From Chloroflexota bacterium (GTDB lineage: Bacteria; Chloroflexota; UBA6077; JACCZL01), in contig JADZEM010000190.1 in the NCBI GenBank assembly GCA_020850535.1, forward strand, positions 1 to 64,000: DNA of 64,000 nt, written 5' to 3'. The position numbers were made by a program, and so were the translations under genes. Positions 12,026-22,398 of the stretch are shown here, piece by piece. The notes beneath the pieces were generated by a model. The model made no database searches. It worked only from the letters and a program-made list of their open reading frames with translations, and was not told where the DNA came from. How positions within the stretch are numbered: position 1 is the stretch's first letter; each line of letters begins with the position of its first letter.

Positions 12026-13277
12026 GCGCGCACGCATCGCCCATCTCCTGCGCCGAGCCGGCTTCGGCCCGAGCGAGCGCGACCTGACCGAGTACACCGC
12101 CCTCGGCTTCGACGGCGCGGTGAGACGGCTGGTGGACTACGAGTCGATCCCGGAGACCCCGGACCGCGTCCTGGCCGAGGAGGTCGGGCTGCAGGTCTGG
12201 TGGCTCAGCAAGATGCTGCACACCAGCCGCCCGCTCCAGGAGAAGATGACGCTGTTCTGGCACGGGCTGCTGACCTCGGGCATCCAGAAGGTCAAAGATC
12301 CGAACGCGATGCAGGCCCAGAACCACCTGCTGCGGACGCACGCGCTGGGGCAGTATGGCCCCCTGCTCCGGGCGATCTCGCGCGACGGCGCGATGATCCG
12401 CTGGCTCGATCTGCAAACCAACCGCAAGGGCGCCCCGAACGAGAACTACGCCCGCGAGCTGCTGGAGCTGTTCACGCTGGGCATCGGCAACTACACCGAA
12501 GATGACGTGGACGAGATCGCGCGGGCGTTCACCGGCTGGTCGGCCACGCCTGATGGTCGCTTCCAGTTCCTCCCCAACCAGCACGATGCTGGCGTCAAGA
12601 CGATCCTCGGGCAGACCGGCCCCTTCGACGGCGACGCTGTCAGCGACATACTGGCCGCCCACCCGCAGACGGCCCGCTTCATTTCCACGAAGCTGTTCCG
12701 GTTCTTCGCGTATCCATCTCCCGAGCCGGAGGTCATCGACCGGCTGGCCGCCGTCTACAGGCAGTCGAGCGGCTCGATCGAGGCCGTGGTCGAAGCGATC
12801 TTCCGCTCGCCGGAGTTTGTCTCGGAGCGGGCGTACCGCGCCCTCATCAAGAGCCCGACCGAGCTGGTGGTGGGCGCGCTGCGAGCGCTCGGCGCGGAGA
12901 GCGTGCCGCCTCAGGCCGTCCAGACGATGCGCCTGCTCGGCCAGGAGCTGTTCAACCCGCCGAACGTGGCCGGCTGGTTCGGGCACCGCAGCTGGATCAA
13001 CGCCAGCACGCTGCTGGGGCGCTTCAACGTCCTCGGCACGCTGGCCACCGGTCTCGGCAACCCGAACCTCGGCGGCCAGCCCGTCCCGACCCTGTTCGGC
13101 AACGCGACCAGCCCGGCCGACCGCGTCCAGCGCGTGCTCGACTTGCTGCTGGACGGCGAGGCCGCCCCCGACGAGCGCGACGCCCTCCTGGCCTACGCCG
13201 ACCAGGCCCGCCGACCGGAGCAGCTCAAGGGGCTGTTCCGGGTCGCGCTGACGCTGCCGGCGTATCAGCTCAATTGA
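12009..13277 (+). CDS. DUF1800 family protein
   Basis: 422 aa, ATG 12009 with GGGGGAG 8 bases upstream. The N-terminal IAHLLRRAGFGPSE, the middle block MTLFWHGLLTSG and NENYARELLELFTLG, and the later FNPPNVAGW are the hallmark blocks of the DUF1800 family (about 400-500 aa). No signal peptide is obvious in the first residues. DUF1800 genes commonly precede a DUF1501 gene, as here. The pair has been linked to secretion or surface structures in several phyla, but its biochemical role is not established. It overlaps the preceding secreted-protein gene. Confidence 0.88.
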   Translation: MALDSERARIAHLLRRAGFGPSERDLTEYTALGFDGAVRRLVDYESIPETPDRVLAEEVGLQVWWLSKMLHTSRPLQEKMTLFWHGLLTSGIQKVKDPNAMQAQNHLLRTHALGQYGPLLRAISRDGAMIRWLDLQTNRKGAPNENYARELLELFTLGIGNYTEDDVDEIARAFTGWSATPDGRFQFLPNQHDAGVKTILGQTGPFDGDAVSDILAAHPQTARFISTKLFRFFAYPSPEPEVIDRLAAVYRQSSGSIEAVVEAIFRSPEFVSERAYRALIKSPTELVVGALRALGAESVPPQAVQTMRLLGQELFNPPNVAGWFGHRSWINASTLLGRFNVLGTLATGLGNPNLGGQPVPTLFGNATSPADRVQRVLDLLLDGEAAPDERDALLAYADQARRPEQLKGLFRVALTLPAYQLN

Positions 13278-13301
13278 TGCTGGTGCACGGCCACATGGAG
13301 T

Positions 13302-13348
13302 TTCACCCCCTCACCCCCCGGCCCGCTGCGCGGCGGGGGGTGAGGGGC
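13302..13348. repeat. REP-like palindrome between DUF1800 and DUF1501 genes
   Basis: A C-rich arm (CCCCCTCACCCCCCGGCCCG) and the facing arm ending GGGGGGTGAGGGG can form a long GC hairpin. The same kind of palindrome recurs at 20630, 23833, 32643 and 61123. It may attenuate between the two genes or be a dispersed element only. Confidence 0.6.
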
Positions 13349-13367
13349 ATTTCGGAGGACACACGCC

Positions 13368-14624
13368 ATGATCGTGGAGCGACGCGAGTTCTTGAAGCAC
13401 GGGGTCGGGCTGGTGACGGCTGGCCTCGTCGTGCCGTCCTTCCTGGCGGAGACGGCGCGCTTCCTTGACGGGGGCGTCTCGGTCGCCCAGGCAGCTACGC
13501 GTGCCGGAGATCCCTCCCGCAAGATCCTGGTCGTCGTGCTGCTGGCCGGCGGCAACGACGGCATCAACACGCTGGTCCCGTACGGCGATCCGCTCTACTA
13601 CCAGGGCCGCCCCTCCATCGCGGTCCCCCGCGAGCAGGTCTTGAAGCTGGACGACCGCGTTGGGCTGAGCCCGGCGCTCAAGAACCTGAAGGCGCGCTAC
13701 GACCGGGGCCAGGTCGCCGTGGTGCAGGGCGTCGGCTACCCGAACCCGAACCGGTCCCACTTCCGCGCGATGGACATCTGGCAGACGGCCGTCCCAGACC
13801 GCATCGAGCCGACCGGCTGGCTCGGACGCTACCTCCAGACGTGCGGCTGCGGCACCGACAAGCACCTGGAGGGCATCTCCGTCGGCACGACGGTCCAGAA
13901 GTCGTTCTGGACCGAGCTGACGCTGGTCCCGGCCATCTCGAACCTCGCGGCGTTCCAGTTCGGCGGGCCGCGCGCCAACCCGGCCGCGCGGTCCTACGAG
14001 GTCGAGGCCCTGCGGCGCGCGATCGGCCAGTCACGGGGCCGGCCGGAGGAGGAGTTTCTGCGGCAGGCGACCCAGATCGCCCTGGACGACGCCGACACGC
14101 TCGGGCAGGTGGCGCAGGGCTACCAGACCAGTGTGGACTACCCGCAGAGCCCCATCGGCGAGAGCCTCAAGACGATTGCCCAGGTCATCGCGGGGGACGT
14201 CGGCACGCGGGTCTTCTTCGCCACGCTGGGCGGCTTCGACACTCACGCCAACCAGAGCGCCACGCAGCAGCGGCTCCTGACCGAGCTTGACGGTTCGATT
14301 GAGGCGTTCATGCAGGACGTCGAGCGGCTCCAGCGCCAGGACGACGTGCTGCTGATGACGTTCTCGGAGTTCGGGCGGCGGGTCAACGAGAACGCCAGCA
14401 ACGGCACCGACCACGGCACCGCCGAGCCGCTGTTCATGGTCGGCGGCGGGGTCAAGGGCGGGCTGCACGGCCGCTACCCGAGCCTCTCGGACCTGGACCG
14501 CTTCGACCTGAAGCACACCACCGACTTCCGCACCGTCTACAGCTCGGTGCTCCAGGACTGGCTGAGCGTCGCGCCCGACGCGATCCTGGGCGGGACGTTC
14601 GGGAAGCTGCCGGTGGTGGCCTGA
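13368..14624 (+). CDS. DUF1501 family protein, Tat-exported
   Basis: 418 aa, ATG 13368, preceded by GGAGGACACACGCC. It starts MIVERREFLKHG, a twin-arginine motif followed by a hydrophobic stretch, so export by the Tat pathway is likely. The mature part has the DUF1501 blocks ILVVVLLAGGNDGINTLVP, NRSHFRAMDIWQ and FSEFGRRVNEN...GTDHGTAEP, the last resembling metal-binding residues of the alkaline-phosphatase/sulfatase superfamily. Its length is typical. It is the partner of the DUF1800 gene 90 bases upstream. The enzymatic activity is not established; a metallo-hydrolase fold is an inference from the family. Confidence 0.88.
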   Translation: MIVERREFLKHGVGLVTAGLVVPSFLAETARFLDGGVSVAQAATRAGDPSRKILVVVLLAGGNDGINTLVPYGDPLYYQGRPSIAVPREQVLKLDDRVGLSPALKNLKARYDRGQVAVVQGVGYPNPNRSHFRAMDIWQTAVPDRIEPTGWLGRYLQTCGCGTDKHLEGISVGTTVQKSFWTELTLVPAISNLAAFQFGGPRANPAARSYEVEALRRAIGQSRGRPEEEFLRQATQIALDDADTLGQVAQGYQTSVDYPQSPIGESLKTIAQVIAGDVGTRVFFATLGGFDTHANQSATQQRLLTELDGSIEAFMQDVERLQRQDDVLLMTFSEFGRRVNENASNGTDHGTAEPLFMVGGGVKGGLHGRYPSLSDLDRFDLKHTTDFRTVYSSVLQDWLSVAPDAILGGTFGKLPVVA

Positions 14625-17583: not shown

Positions 17584-17880
17584 CTACCGCCGCAGCACCA
17601 CGAACGTCCAGGTTGCCGAGGCCGGGTTGATCGCGCCCGCCGAGGCGTTCGTCGTCCGCAGCTTGAACGAGCCGTTCGCCACCGTGTGGCAGCCCTGCAC
17701 CGCGATGCCCGCCTCCAGCGTGGCCGGCGGCGTCGCCAGCACCACGTCCCCGCTCTTGACCAGCGTGCTCGTCACGTCCGTGTCCACGCTCGCCACCGCC
17801 GTGTGGTTCGCCGGGTCAACCGTGGCCGTGAAGCTGAACCCGCTCGTGTAGACCGTCCCGCCAAACTCCGCCACTGGCAT
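17584..17880 (-). CDS. Small beta-rich phage-type structural protein
   Basis: 98 aa, ATG 17880 with AAGGAGG 7 bases upstream. The sequence is almost all beta-strand-like, with alternating V/T/A, and contains SGDVVLATPPATLEAGIAV and ASATWTFVVLRR. That pattern is seen in small proteins encoded just after major capsid genes (decoration, fibre or stopper-like). One Cys. It is the last gene of the five-gene capsid island. I recognise the type, not a named family. An outer decoration protein is the best guess. Confidence 0.6.
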   Translation of the reverse strand: MPVAEFGGTVYTSGFSFTATVDPANHTAVASVDTDVTSTLVKSGDVVLATPPATLEAGIAVQGCHTVANGSFKLRTTNASAGAINPASATWTFVVLRR

Positions 17881-17894
17881 GGTGTGCCCTCCTT

Positions 17895-17990
17895 CGTCGG
17901 GCGGTCGTGGGCCATGGATCGTGGATGGTAGGGAGGAGCCGAGGGAGATCCCCACCACCCACGATCTACGACCCACGACCGACGCGGCAG
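17895..17990. repeat. Degenerate heptamer repeats in capsid island gap
   Basis: The 112-base gap between the major capsid gene and the small beta-rich gene holds GGGCCATGGATCGTGG on one side and CCCACGATCTACGACCCACG on the other. These are members of the seven-base repeat family (GGGTCGT and variants), arranged as an inverted pair. Confidence 0.6.
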
Positions 17991-17992
17991 CG

Positions 17993-18901
17993 TCAACTGG
18001 CGCTGACGCCGTTCATCCGGGCGATGGCCGAGTCCCGCAGGACCGCCATCCCCACGTACCAGCGAATCCGCACCCGGCTCGCGTCCTTCGTCTCCAGCGG
18101 CCCCACGTCAATCGCCTCGACGCCGCCGTTCGTCAGTCCCACCAGTCCATCAGCCGGGCTGAAGTGGATCGCGTAGATCGAGGAGAAGGTGCTGCCCGAG
18201 CCGTTGTCAGCTGCCTCCGCGTCGGAGATGAAGTCCGAGACGAGCACCGGGATGCCGTCGTACAGCAACACCTGCCGCCCGAAGCTCGACTCGCCCGTCT
18301 CCACGTAGTGCGTCGAGGCCGAGAGCAGGCCCTTCAGCTTACGGCGCGTCCGCTTGCTCATCAGCAGCACGTCCGGCTTGCCGCCCTTGACGAGATCGAT
18401 CAGTTGGTCGAGCAGCGCCAGCGTCAAGGATCCGCCGGCAGCGGCCGGCGTCAGCACCTGCCCGCTCGAACCGGTGCTCGGGTACAAGACCTTCAAGCCG
18501 TCGAAGGCGTTCGGGTCGGCCGTGGCATCGCCCGAGATGACCGTCTGCTCCCACTTGCGGGCCACGTCCTTCGCCTTGAGCATCGTCTGGATGGCGCGCT
18601 GGTCGTTGACGTTCGAGCGCGCCCGCTGCACGAAATTGTCCACGTCGGCATCGCCGCCGAGGATCGCCAGGTTCACCGTCTTCTGCGTGAACGTGGCCGC
18701 CGCCTCCGACCAGACCCCGTTGACCGGGTAGAACGACGCCCCGCCGAGCGTGTTCTCCTGCGTGAACTTGAAGCTGTTCCCCTCCACCTCCAGGAACGGC
18801 ATCACCCGCAGCATCGGGCTCTCTTCGAGGATCGTCTCGATCACTCCGCGCTGCACCATATCAGTGGAGAGCTTAGCGCTCTCAGCCAGCAACAGTGGCA
18901 C
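17993..18901 (-). CDS. Phage major capsid protein (HK97-fold type)
   Basis: 302 aa, GTG 18901 with AAGGAGG 8 bases upstream. The sequence runs through the usual order of a tailed-phage capsid subunit. It has an N-terminal arm (residues 1-60), then an A/P-domain-like core with DADVDNFVQRARSNVNDQRA, the WEQTVISGD block, GGKPDVLLMSKRTRRKLKGLL, and a C-terminal beta segment (RVRIRWYVGMAVLRDSAIARMNGV). There is no long N-terminal delta domain, consistent with a separate scaffold gene upstream. It would self-assemble into a shell. No frameshift or stop is present, so the gene is intact. An encapsulin is less likely because portal and scaffold genes accompany it. Confidence 0.82.
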   Translation of the reverse strand: MPLLLAESAKLSTDMVQRGVIETILEESPMLRVMPFLEVEGNSFKFTQENTLGGASFYPVNGVWSEAAATFTQKTVNLAILGGDADVDNFVQRARSNVNDQRAIQTMLKAKDVARKWEQTVISGDATADPNAFDGLKVLYPSTGSSGQVLTPAAAGGSLTLALLDQLIDLVKGGKPDVLLMSKRTRRKLKGLLSASTHYVETGESSFGRQVLLYDGIPVLVSDFISDAEAADNGSGSTFSSIYAIHFSPADGLVGLTNGGVEAIDVGPLETKDASRVRIRWYVGMAVLRDSAIARMNGVSAS

Positions 18902-19248: not shown

Positions 19249-19698
19249 CTACTTCCTCAGGCCCGTCTCGATCAGCGCCAGCGGCGACAGTCCCGCCACC
19301 GGCGTTGTGCGCGCAGACGGCGCGCCGGCCGGCACCGACTGCCGCGCCAACGCCGCCCGCGCCGTCTCCAGCGCTCGCGTGTACGCCCCTTTCGCCACGT
19401 CCACGCTCGCCAGCAGCGCTTCCTCAGTCTCCCCGCTCACCAGCTCCGGGACGATCTGCCCGGCCTGCTCGGCCAGCAGCGCCCGTCGCAGCGCGGCCAG
19501 CCCGGCCGCCTGGGCCGTCGTCAACTCCCCGGCCAGGGCGTCCCGCGCCGAGGTCGCCTCGCCCAACTGCGCCGTCAGGTCCGCCAGCCGACCTGTCGTC
19601 TCGGCCAGTTGCCCGGCCGCCCCGTCCCGCTCGACCGTCAGTGTGGAGAGCTGGCCTTCCAGCTCGGCAATCCGCGCCAACGCCTCGTCGATCTCCAT
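19249..19698 (-). CDS. Phage capsid scaffolding-like protein
   Basis: 149 aa, ATG 19698 with GGAGG 5 bases upstream. The N-terminal ~70 residues are a coiled coil (Glu/Leu/Ala heptads, LARIAELEGQL). A helical block ending in IVPELVSGETEEALLASVD follows, then a flexible Pro/Ala tail and a short basic C-terminus (LALIETGLRK). This build is typical of phage scaffold proteins encoded directly upstream of the major capsid gene, where the basic C-terminus contacts capsid subunits. No protease domain is fused. Confidence 0.68.
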   Translation of the reverse strand: MEIDEALARIAELEGQLSTLTVERDGAAGQLAETTGRLADLTAQLGEATSARDALAGELTTAQAAGLAALRRALLAEQAGQIVPELVSGETEEALLASVDVAKGAYTRALETARAALARQSVPAGAPSARTTPVAGLSPLALIETGLRK

Positions 19699-19945: not shown

Positions 19946-20614
19946 TCACTCGCGGGCCACCAGCCGGCGCGGCCTGACCCCGCCACGCCGTCGCCGCGCC
20001 CGCTGCTCGAACGCCCCCTGGTAGTGCAGCCGCGCGCTGACCGGATCCGCGCCCCGCTGCCGCTCGAAGCGCTGCCGCTTCGCCTCGTCGGTCGCCACCC
20101 ACCCGAGCGCCCGCGCGCAAACGTAGGACACCAGGGCATCCTCGTCTTCAGCCAGCAGATCGAGCGCCGACACGTCGTCGGCTGGCACGGTGTACGCGCC
20201 CTTGTAGCGGACCTCGATGGTCTCTCCGGTCGCGCCAGGGGCCGGGATCAGCACCAGATCGCCGGCCCACTGCTCCCAGGTCAGTTGGGCCGGCTTCAGG
20301 CCCGTCCACCCACCCAGCATCCCCAGGTCCGCCGACGGTGAGATGTCGCCGTCGCGCAGGCCGCCCCGCGCGCGGAACAGGCCGGCCGGATGCTCTACCC
20401 GCACGATCTCCAGCACGTCGTTCGGCAGGAGGTAGGTCGGATCGTTCGCCGCCGAGATGGTCTGCCAGGTACGGTCACGCGGAGCCACCCGCGACCACTC
20501 GCGAATCCCCTCCCCGATCCACCGATCGAGCAGCCCGTCCGACCACAGCTTCGTCGCGCCGGTGTCGTTCAGCTCATCGCGTACCCTCGTGCGGATGTCC
20601 GCGCGGGTCGTCAT
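19946..20614 (-). CDS. Phage head-tail adaptor/connector-like protein
   Basis: 222 aa, ATG 20614 overlapping the portal stop by 4 bases. It begins TTRADIRTRVRDELNDTG and LLDRWIGEGIREWSR, the opening of many phage neck adaptor proteins. A beta-rich middle follows (TYLLPNDVLEIVRVEH, GETIEVRYKGAYTVPADD), then a helical, strongly basic tail. In tailed phages such proteins sit under the portal ring and close the head. Here it lies between portal and scaffold, which is not the most common order. Assignment is by pattern and context. Confidence 0.62.
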   Translation of the reverse strand: MTTRADIRTRVRDELNDTGATKLWSDGLLDRWIGEGIREWSRVAPRDRTWQTISAANDPTYLLPNDVLEIVRVEHPAGLFRARGGLRDGDISPSADLGMLGGWTGLKPAQLTWEQWAGDLVLIPAPGATGETIEVRYKGAYTVPADDVSALDLLAEDEDALVSYVCARALGWVATDEAKRQRFERQRGADPVSARLHYQGAFEQRARRRRGGVRPRRLVARE

Positions 20615-22101
20615 GGCGCGTCTCCTCTCGCCCCCTCTCCGCGCCGGAGAGAAGGTCGGGGGCTGAGGTCGGATCGTTCGCCCAGGGCTGCGCGGTCGGC
20701 CTGGACACGCGCCAGCTCTTCCTCAGGGCTCTCCGTCCCCAGGTCGTCCATCGCCGTGCGGTGGCTGCGTAGCCCGGCTGCCACCAGCCGGACCTGGTTC
20801 TGCACCTCGGCCACGTCGTCCTTCGGGAGCATCGGCGGCCAGAGTACCCGCACGCGGTCGTCGTCCGCGCCCCGCTGCGGGCCATCCAGCCGCCCGCTCA
20901 CGGGCACGCTCGCCGGCGCGGACACGCCCAGCCGGCCCACCCCGAACTGTCGCGCCAGCCGCAGCACCAGCCGCGTGCGCTGCCGAAGCGCCCGCGTCCA
21001 CCACGCCCGCTTCCGCAGCGTCCGCTGCACGATGGGCCGCAGCTCCGTCTCCAGCGCCACCCCGGAGAGCAGCCGACCGCTGTCCCCGAAGGCGGCTCGC
21101 GGCGTCTCCGTCACCTCGTAGAGCGTCCGGTACAGCCGCTCGATGTGCTCGCCAACGGCGACGGCCTGCCCCTGCCACTCCAGCAGCTTGACGTCGGCGT
21201 CGGACGGGATGTCCCAGACCGTCCCCGGCCCGACCGCCAGATCCGCGTGATCCGTCACCCCGCGAAAGACGATGGGCGGGTCAGCATGGAAGCGGATCAC
21301 ATCCGCCTGGTCCGAGACCCGCTCATCGATCTCCCGGTTGATCGGGATGACGTCCACCAGGTCGGACTGGCCCCACGACTCGTTCGCCAGCGGCAGGTTC
21401 GGCACATGCACGAACGGGATCGCGCCGTACGGGTTCGGCCCCTGCCGCGTGACGGTCCGGCCGACCGTCACCTGCAGCTCGGCCGGCGTCCAGCGCTCCA
21501 CCACCTCGGCCACGCCATCGGAGCCGCACAGCCCCTCGGCCTCGCTCGCCGTCAGGCCGTACCCGCCAAGCGCAAGGTCTTCCGCAGCCAGGCTGTACGC
21601 CACCTCGACGCGCCGCAGCGTGGCCGGATCGTCGCCGGCCCACGTCGCGAAGAACGTCCGAGGGTCCACGCTCAGGATGCGGACACGCTCCGTCGCCGGC
21701 TCCCAGACGACCTTGTAGACGCCATCGCCCAGGACCGCCGCATTCTGCGCCACCTGGAGATCGACGCCCTCGACGTCGTTCTGCCAGCCGACGTCGTACA
21801 GCAGCTGCTCGGCCGCCTCGGCCCGCCGCCGCTCGCGCGCGCTCGCCTCGTGGGCCGGCAGCACCGAGAACCCGACGCCCCGCCCGAGCAGGTACGCGAT
21901 CCCCTTGTCCACCACCACGCGCGCGTAGTTGAGCACCAGATTCGAGCGGCCGTTGCGCGCCCGCTCGAAGTGCCGGCCCTCGTAGAACTCCTGATACTGG
22001 CGATATCGCCGCAGCCGCGCGCCGGCCACCGACCGCAGCCGGTCCACCGCATCGCCGGCCGGGGTCACCCCCGCCTGGAGCTGGATCACCACGCCACCCA
22101 C
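20611..22101 (-). CDS. Phage portal protein (SPP1 gp6-like)
   Basis: 496 aa. GTG 22101 is used; nearby GTGs (e.g. 22092 and 22089) are alternatives. Blocks recognised: RYRQYQEFYEGRHF, NLVLNYARVVVDKGIAYLLG, AQNAAVLGDGVYKVVWEP, WGQSDLVDVIPINREIDERVSDQADV and AFGDSGRLLSGVALETELRPIVQ. These follow the SPP1-type portal order and length, so it would form the dodecameric DNA gate of a capsid vertex. The last ~18 residues (DLSPRPSLRRGEGARGDAP) are encoded by a REP-like palindrome, an apparent late extension. The gene is intact. Terminase, expected next to it, is absent; upstream is a LexA-like box and a heptamer array. Confidence 0.85.
   Translation of the reverse strand: MGGVVIQLQAGVTPAGDAVDRLRSVAGARLRRYRQYQEFYEGRHFERARNGRSNLVLNYARVVVDKGIAYLLGRGVGFSVLPAHEASARERRRAEAAEQLLYDVGWQNDVEGVDLQVAQNAAVLGDGVYKVVWEPATERVRILSVDPRTFFATWAGDDPATLRRVEVAYSLAAEDLALGGYGLTASEAEGLCGSDGVAEVVERWTPAELQVTVGRTVTRQGPNPYGAIPFVHVPNLPLANESWGQSDLVDVIPINREIDERVSDQADVIRFHADPPIVFRGVTDHADLAVGPGTVWDIPSDADVKLLEWQGQAVAVGEHIERLYRTLYEVTETPRAAFGDSGRLLSGVALETELRPIVQRTLRKRAWWTRALRQRTRLVLRLARQFGVGRLGVSAPASVPVSGRLDGPQRGADDDRVRVLWPPMLPKDDVAEVQNQVRLVAAGLRSHRTAMDDLGTESPEEELARVQADRAALGERSDLSPRPSLRRGEGARGDAP
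20630..20680. repeat. REP-like palindrome inside the portal 3' end
   Basis: CCCCCTCTCCGCGCCGGAGA followed by AGGTCGGGGGCTGAGG matches the C-rich palindrome family seen elsewhere. It codes in frame for the portal C-terminus. Confidence 0.6.
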
Positions 22102-22166: not shown

Positions 22167-22192
22167 AGATATAGAACGTATGTTCTCTATCT
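22167..22192 (-). promoter_or_regulatory. LexA-like (SOS) box in the putative portal promoter
   Basis: A near-perfect 26-base dyad whose core is AGAAC-N4-GTTCT (22173-22186), fitting the GAAC-N4-GTTC LexA operator of Gram-positive and related bacteria. On the minus strand a TATATC -10 (22168-22173) follows CTGAGA with a 16-base spacer, so the dyad would lie between -35 and -10. Transcription would start near 22160, about 60 bases before the portal start. Regulation by LexA is inferred from sequence. Confidence 0.6.
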
Positions 22193-22244
22193 CAGGCTAC
22201 TCGCGGGTGGGATCGGCGGCCACACCACGGCCCGCCATGGGGCT

Positions 22245-22344
22245 GGGTCGTGGGTCGTGGGTCGTGGATCGTGGATCGTGGATCGTGGATCGTGGATCGT
22301 GGATCGTGGATCGTGGATCGTGGATCGTGGATCGTGGATCGTGG
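22245..22344. repeat. Heptamer tandem array (14 units)
   Basis: Three units GGGTCGT (22245-22265) are followed by about eleven units GGATCGT without interruption. This is the cleanest example of the seven-base repeat family in the window. It lies in the 379-base gap between the portal gene and the hydrolase gene; no gene is seen there. Confidence 0.95.
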
Positions 22345-22398
22345 AAAGGAACTGGCAAATGGGCGATGCGGTTTCAGTGCATCATTGCAAGTTTCCAT

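Follow-up and report, generated by a model that had tools for sequence, protein, structure and literature searches.

A predicted LexA operator before phage-derived capsid genes in Chloroflexota, probably one module of a GTA-like particle system inherited vertically and under SOS control

Why does a short run of phage-derived capsid genes, embedded among host genes in a Chloroflexota bacterium, carry in its promoter what looks like the binding site of the host's own SOS repressor? The window, by which we mean the whole stretch of 64,000 nucleotides that was analysed (C190:1-64000 of the 7.65 Mb draft genome G000), contains the site upstream of a portal gene that leads a five-gene island. The reading that we prefer, at a probability of roughly 0.68, is that LexA has an operator here, within the capsid promoter, and that the capsid operon belongs, as one of several modules, to a GTA-like particle system that is inherited vertically and controlled by the SOS response. 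Taken as a separate claim and judged from the genes and their promoters, the existence of a GTA-like particle system is itself probable. The features of the window on which the argument turns are as follows.

22172..22187, minus strand: predicted LexA (SOS) operator, reading GAGAACATACGTTCTA toward the portal gene, with 11 of the 12 specified bases of TAGAAC-N4-GTTCTA
22168..22173, minus strand: -10-like element TATATC, which shares its first TA with the end of the LexA box
20611..22101, minus strand: portal protein, 496 aa, intact, GTG start (PF05133 SPP1_portal, phrog_64)
19946..20614, minus strand: SU10-type adaptor protein, 222 aa (PF24175, phrog_399)
19249..19698, minus strand: scaffold-like protein, 149 aa; 64 of 90 loci have a member of this family immediately before the major capsid protein (MCP) gene
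17993..18901, minus strand: MCP, 302 aa (NF045672 epsilon15 gp7-type, phrog_212)
17584..17976, minus strand: small protein of 130 aa that two relatives also have, possibly a head decoration protein

The site itself is predicted, with little room for doubt, to be a LexA operator. Positions 22167-22192 (AGATATAGAACGTATGTTCTCTATCT) form an imperfect 26-base dyad in which 11 of 13 pairs are complementary, with the core AGAAC-N4-GTTCT, as an earlier note on this DNA had described, and the 16-base box within it, TAGAACGTATGTTCTC (22172-22187), lies about 70 bases ahead of the portal GTG at 22101. The earlier note had also placed the dyad between a -35 and a -10 element, and this geometry holds: TATATC overlaps the end of the box in the same register as TATAAT at the host recA gene (in TAGAACAGACGTGCTATAAT), although the -35 is weak, the best candidate being CTGAGA at 16 nt spacing, and a sigma-70 consensus scan of the site called no promoter reaching its threshold. 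Immediately beyond the operator, at 22244-22345, is a tandem array of the heptamer ATCGTGG.

How much does such a box mean in this genome? The bare core GAAC-N4-GTTC is uninformative, since it occurs at 57 sites in the genome against 56 for the reversed control; it is the outer TA...TA, the promoter context and conservation that make the case for the predicted operator. With at most one mismatch, TAGAAC-N4-GTTCTA is found at 12 sites in 7.65 Mb, compared with about 1.9 expected from base composition, and the corresponding chance expectation is 7e-5 per 300 bp. The 12 sites include those of lexA, recA, an HHH/XPB/DUF790 operon, a Rad52-like gene, tsaD, a DUF5131 gene and a few unclear genes, and three of the 12 lead phage-derived modules, on three contigs. 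The boxes in the host lexA and recA promoters read TAGAACAGGCGTTCTC and TAGCACGTCTGTTCTA, respectively, and the portal box matches them in the motif comparison with these two promoters that the earlier note had called for, in agreement with its identification of a LexA site. The host repressor, encoded on C71, is identified as an equivalog of TIGR00498, scoring 188 bits where the cut-off is 111; it matches Thermotoga LexA 3k2z, and its AAGEP, GKSM and TLKR motifs, found by eye, go with an Ala-Gly cleavage site and a Ser/Lys pair. The recA promoters of most relatives of the order and class possess the box. In Dehalococcoidia-type loci the box is positioned between TTGAC and the -10 element; in genus g49 the boxes are weaker (8-10 of 12), partly because the LexA motif of g49 itself seems to have drifted. 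Because the same box is found at lexA, recA and the portal gene, and in the recA promoters of most relatives, the island is predicted to be SOS-inducible, and this is likely. Elsewhere in the genome, a perfect LexA box precedes genes for an HHH protein, an XPB-like helicase and a DUF790 (Bax1-like) nuclease (L236:5107-8564, on C154), an unusual SOS repair operon, and the DUF5131 gene (L235:5610-6464, on C114) starts 29 bases past its LexA box.

What kind of element is the island? Its five genes, encoding the portal, adaptor, scaffold-like, major capsid and small proteins, are all open, and the MCP scores 216 bits against NF045672 (cut-off 75), with a distant PDB match to 3j4u. The flanking genes are of host type: alpha/beta hydrolase, radical SAM, two-component genes, solute-binding proteins, an LVIVD repeat protein, luciferase-like, DUF1501/DUF1800 and cytochrome oxidase. 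We found no integrase, either in the scanned neighbourhood of the island or among the annotated conserved families, and the scanned neighbours also lack terminase, tail, tail sheath, tube, lysis and phage replication genes; in one relative, L056, an integrase lies near a portal fragment. The window contains no tRNA that might have been an attachment site, and there is no second portal copy in the genome. On gene content, three kinds of element are rejected for the window's island: a temperate prophage, since the integrase and the contiguous set of replication, head, tail and lysis genes are missing; a phage satellite of the cf-PICI type, since no integrase and no replication or packaging module accompany the capsid genes; and a tailocin, since capsid and portal genes are present and tail genes absent. 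The earlier note had expected a functional prophage, satellite or tailocin-type system; instead, integrase, sheath, tube and terminase are all missing beside the island, and the packaging and tail-like genes are on other contigs. Gaps within the island are filled by the heptamer ATCGTGG together with a TGTCATCCTGAGCGCAGCGAAGGA-type repeat, and both also adjoin the tail-like gene on C16, which suggests long residence.

The genes that would complete a particle are dispersed in this genome. A single TerL, identified with a profile of the terminases upstream of relatives' portals, is encoded at C65:12420-13913 with its Walker A, Walker B and nuclease motifs present; there is no recognisable LexA box at this gene, and no terminase was found on the island's own contig. 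The tail-like protein of the relative G004 matches C16:54773-56548, a gene whose start lies 83 bases beyond that of the LexA box TAGAACAAATGATCTA (C16:54690), and a PDB sequence search with the tail-like protein gave nothing significant. Downstream of it are imuA-like, imuB-like and dnaE2-like genes, named by eye from sequence (span L374:4653-13109), and so the C16 box may serve both roles, or may belong to that cassette. The TerS of G016 matches C156 at approximately 13216-13437, over only 77 residues at 40% identity, and the TerS call depends on that match; it sits in an ORF of 236 aa, which begins 15 bases past a LexA box at C156:12702 and overlaps a sigma-70-like gene (TIGR02937, at cut-off). 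Homologs of the endolysin and s70 genes that accompany the capsid genes in some relatives were not found in the host contigs examined, which represent part of the genome. This genome is a draft of 227 contigs with 4.6% contamination, and unlinked contigs could therefore in principle be mis-binned. Sigma-70-like genes are found beside LexA boxes and TerS in two genomes (L364:6788-7369 and L238:5440-6567), and might constitute a second switch tier.

The arrangement recurs across the phylum. Relatives of the MCP are present in 326 public genome stretches, and the best 80 of the 326 are nearly all from Chloroflexota. A box of at least 11/12 is found no more than 700 bp upstream of the portal gene at 21 of 43 genome loci (control mean 0.06) and at 10 of 22 IMG/VR loci (control 0.00). 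Around the MCP gene, 14 boxes of at least 11/12 are located 2-3 kb upstream and eight in the last kb, where permuted palindromes give about 0.03 per bin, and the 9 kb that begin at the MCP start contain none. Most of the 29 TerL loci examined have an upstream box of at least 10/12, including those of class relatives with a different, protease-fused capsid type, and in G004 and G010 the box precedes a terL gene that there precedes the portal gene. In some class relatives the whole set forms a contiguous cassette of about 10 kb, consisting of box, TerS, TerL, portal, protease-capsid fusion, adaptor, endolysin, tail-like and s70 genes. The Chloroflexota TerS proteins (111-127 aa) gave no HTH family match in a family search of their sequence, and as far as this goes they would fit the description of GTA-type TerS (PMC6854486, PMC11841831). 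A large, divergently oriented gene for a surface protein with IPT/TIG and bacterial-Ig domains lies beside the capsid module in Dehalococcoidia (L121:2418-4271 and nine other loci), and the same gene type lies beside TerS-TerL in three genomes (L299, L300, L317); it may belong to the system.

Could the boxes simply have outlived the genes that they once controlled? An ancient prophage lineage, with a late operon formerly under host LexA, genes now decaying and boxes left over, is the alternative that survives best, and we consider it unlikely. In its favor, the Dehalococcoides-like genomes L067 and L068 retain both LexA boxes and TerL, but their portal is truncated and the MCP is undetected, and therefore a box alone is no proof of function. 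Furthermore, lysis genes are absent near the window's island, and the capsid gene is absent from many genomes of the phylum: in a survey of 300 sampled Chloroflexota genomes plus G000, MCP was found in 34 of 301 and TerL in 99 of 301, mostly as a single copy, and for MCP to be present in so few genomes, losses or transfers must be frequent. Decay is nevertheless hard to reconcile with five open genes in the window, with an MCP that is 63-71% identical between genera of the window's order, and with MCP dN/dS values of 0.07-0.23, which were measured in genus g49 and which show, at the level of coding sequence, purifying selection on the capsid gene in that one genus. The earlier note's view that the site argues against a dead remnant is thus only partly right: the selection seen on the capsid gene of relatives agrees with it, but the boxes kept beside the truncated portals of L067 and L068 do not.

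The promoters of the separated modules also stay alike within each genome, against what would be expected of remnants. An element of 20-26 bases upstream of the -35 is common to capsid and terS promoters that are far apart in one genome (L306, L305, L312, L062, L065, L064 and L299-L303), and it is specific to the lineage, being CCAAAAACGACAAAAGTCGC in G063 and CTGAGTGTGCCATTTCCC in G094. Identity between capsid and terS upstream elements is 85% within a genome versus 51% between genomes, with 2 of 720 permutations as good, figures that are descriptive because the promoters were picked after their likeness was seen. An element that varies by lineage is as expected if a lineage-specific factor binds the promoters of both modules.

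The MCP and RecA trees have 12 of 17 splits in common, where the maximum in 2000 shuffles was three, and the TerL and RecA trees seven of 13, again with a shuffle maximum of three; by this comparison of gene trees, the head and terminase genes have been vertically inherited in the wider phylum. Within the window's own order, represented by six genomes, the correlation of MCP and RecA distances is non-significant (r 0.23). A tree that matches that of the host might also be produced by a temperate phage or satellite, functional but infecting close relatives only, with late genes that LexA controls, a reading that we regard as improbable. In its favor are the contiguous cassette of the class relatives and the presence of MCP relatives in several hundred IMG/VR contigs that were binned as viral, but the contigs retrieved are short, mostly 4-12 kb, and the window's island has host genes on its flanks and no integrase among the neighbours and conserved families described above. 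In several closed genomes, moreover, hundreds of kb separate the capsid module from the terminase module: MCP and TerL are at 172,686 and 1,259,745 in G094, at 1,070,673 and 463,847 in G122, and at 1,959,928 and 680,848 in G248, whereas in other closed genomes the distance is 3-9 kb. Separate modules that are each led by a box are found in L114, L317/L318 and G008. Very improbable is a damage-induced capsid with a role other than DNA transfer, as a compartment or linked to lysis, for which the absence of a linked terminase or lysis gene at the window's island and the precedent of encapsulins, which show that such shells can be domesticated (PMC8346489), might be cited, but the portal and adaptor have been kept, the genome encodes a TerL that is intact, its Walker and nuclease motifs included, and the TerS-TerL modules of relatives have the same promoter design.

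How might such a GTA-like system operate under SOS control? In the undamaged cell, LexA would lie over the -10 element and keep the operon off; upon DNA damage, RecA filaments would provoke LexA self-cleavage, and the capsid genes would be switched on together with the host repair genes. The capsid operon would be one module of a particle system kept by descent in the host lineage, with the remaining modules elsewhere in the chromosome, namely the boxed tail-like gene on C16, the boxed TerS-like and sigma factor genes on C156, and TerL on C65. Co-expression of these modules would yield a small capsid with a short tail, loaded with host DNA in the manner of a GTA. We infer LexA binding, induction, particle formation, host-DNA packaging and transfer from the arrangement described above. 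A bolder version, to which we give even odds, is that this is an ancient, independently domesticated Chloroflexota GTA, with scattered head, packaging and tail modules that are co-switched by LexA so that damage leads to DNA export, and with a second, lineage-specific promoter element in each species.

Phage genes under LexA control are familiar, as are GTAs, but those GTAs whose regulation has been characterised come mostly from Alphaproteobacteria, and a role for GTAs in DNA repair is still debated. In the open-licence literature, we found no prior description of a system in which, across a phylum, LexA boxes act directly on head, packaging and tail modules that are unlinked and inherited vertically. 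If the proposal is true, head and terminase genes under the host SOS repressor across a phylum would tie damage directly to DNA packaging, the question of GTAs and repair would become testable in cultured Chloroflexota, and LexA boxes before unlinked head and terminase modules could serve as a recognition mark for GTAs that prophage finders have missed.

The Chloroflexota set is reminiscent of the RcGTA-type systems of Rhodobacter and Caulobacter (PMC11841831), in which phage-derived head and terminase genes are likewise inherited with the host, replication genes are absent, TerS is without a detected DNA-binding domain, and regulation is at the level of the host. Unlike these, it belongs to a different phylum, consists of other head and terminase families at separate chromosomal loci, and has LexA boxes directly in its promoters; its transfer of DNA is putative. 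The Caulobacter GTA is also tied to a LexA-fold repressor, RogA, and to DNA repair (PMC9632790), but RogA is without the key self-cleavage residues and works via activators, whereas here a site for the host's cleavable-type LexA is predicted in the promoter of the structural genes. The capsid (NF045672, 3j4u), adaptor (PF24175) and portal families are those of the heads of Epsilon15-, BPP-1- and SU10-like podoviruses, although the window's island has no adjoining replication, integration or lysis genes. Finally, in LexA-controlled prophages and colicin-type operons, host LexA holds phage-derived or lethal genes off until damage, as it would here; the Chloroflexota modules differ in that they are several, unlinked, separately boxed and vertically inherited.
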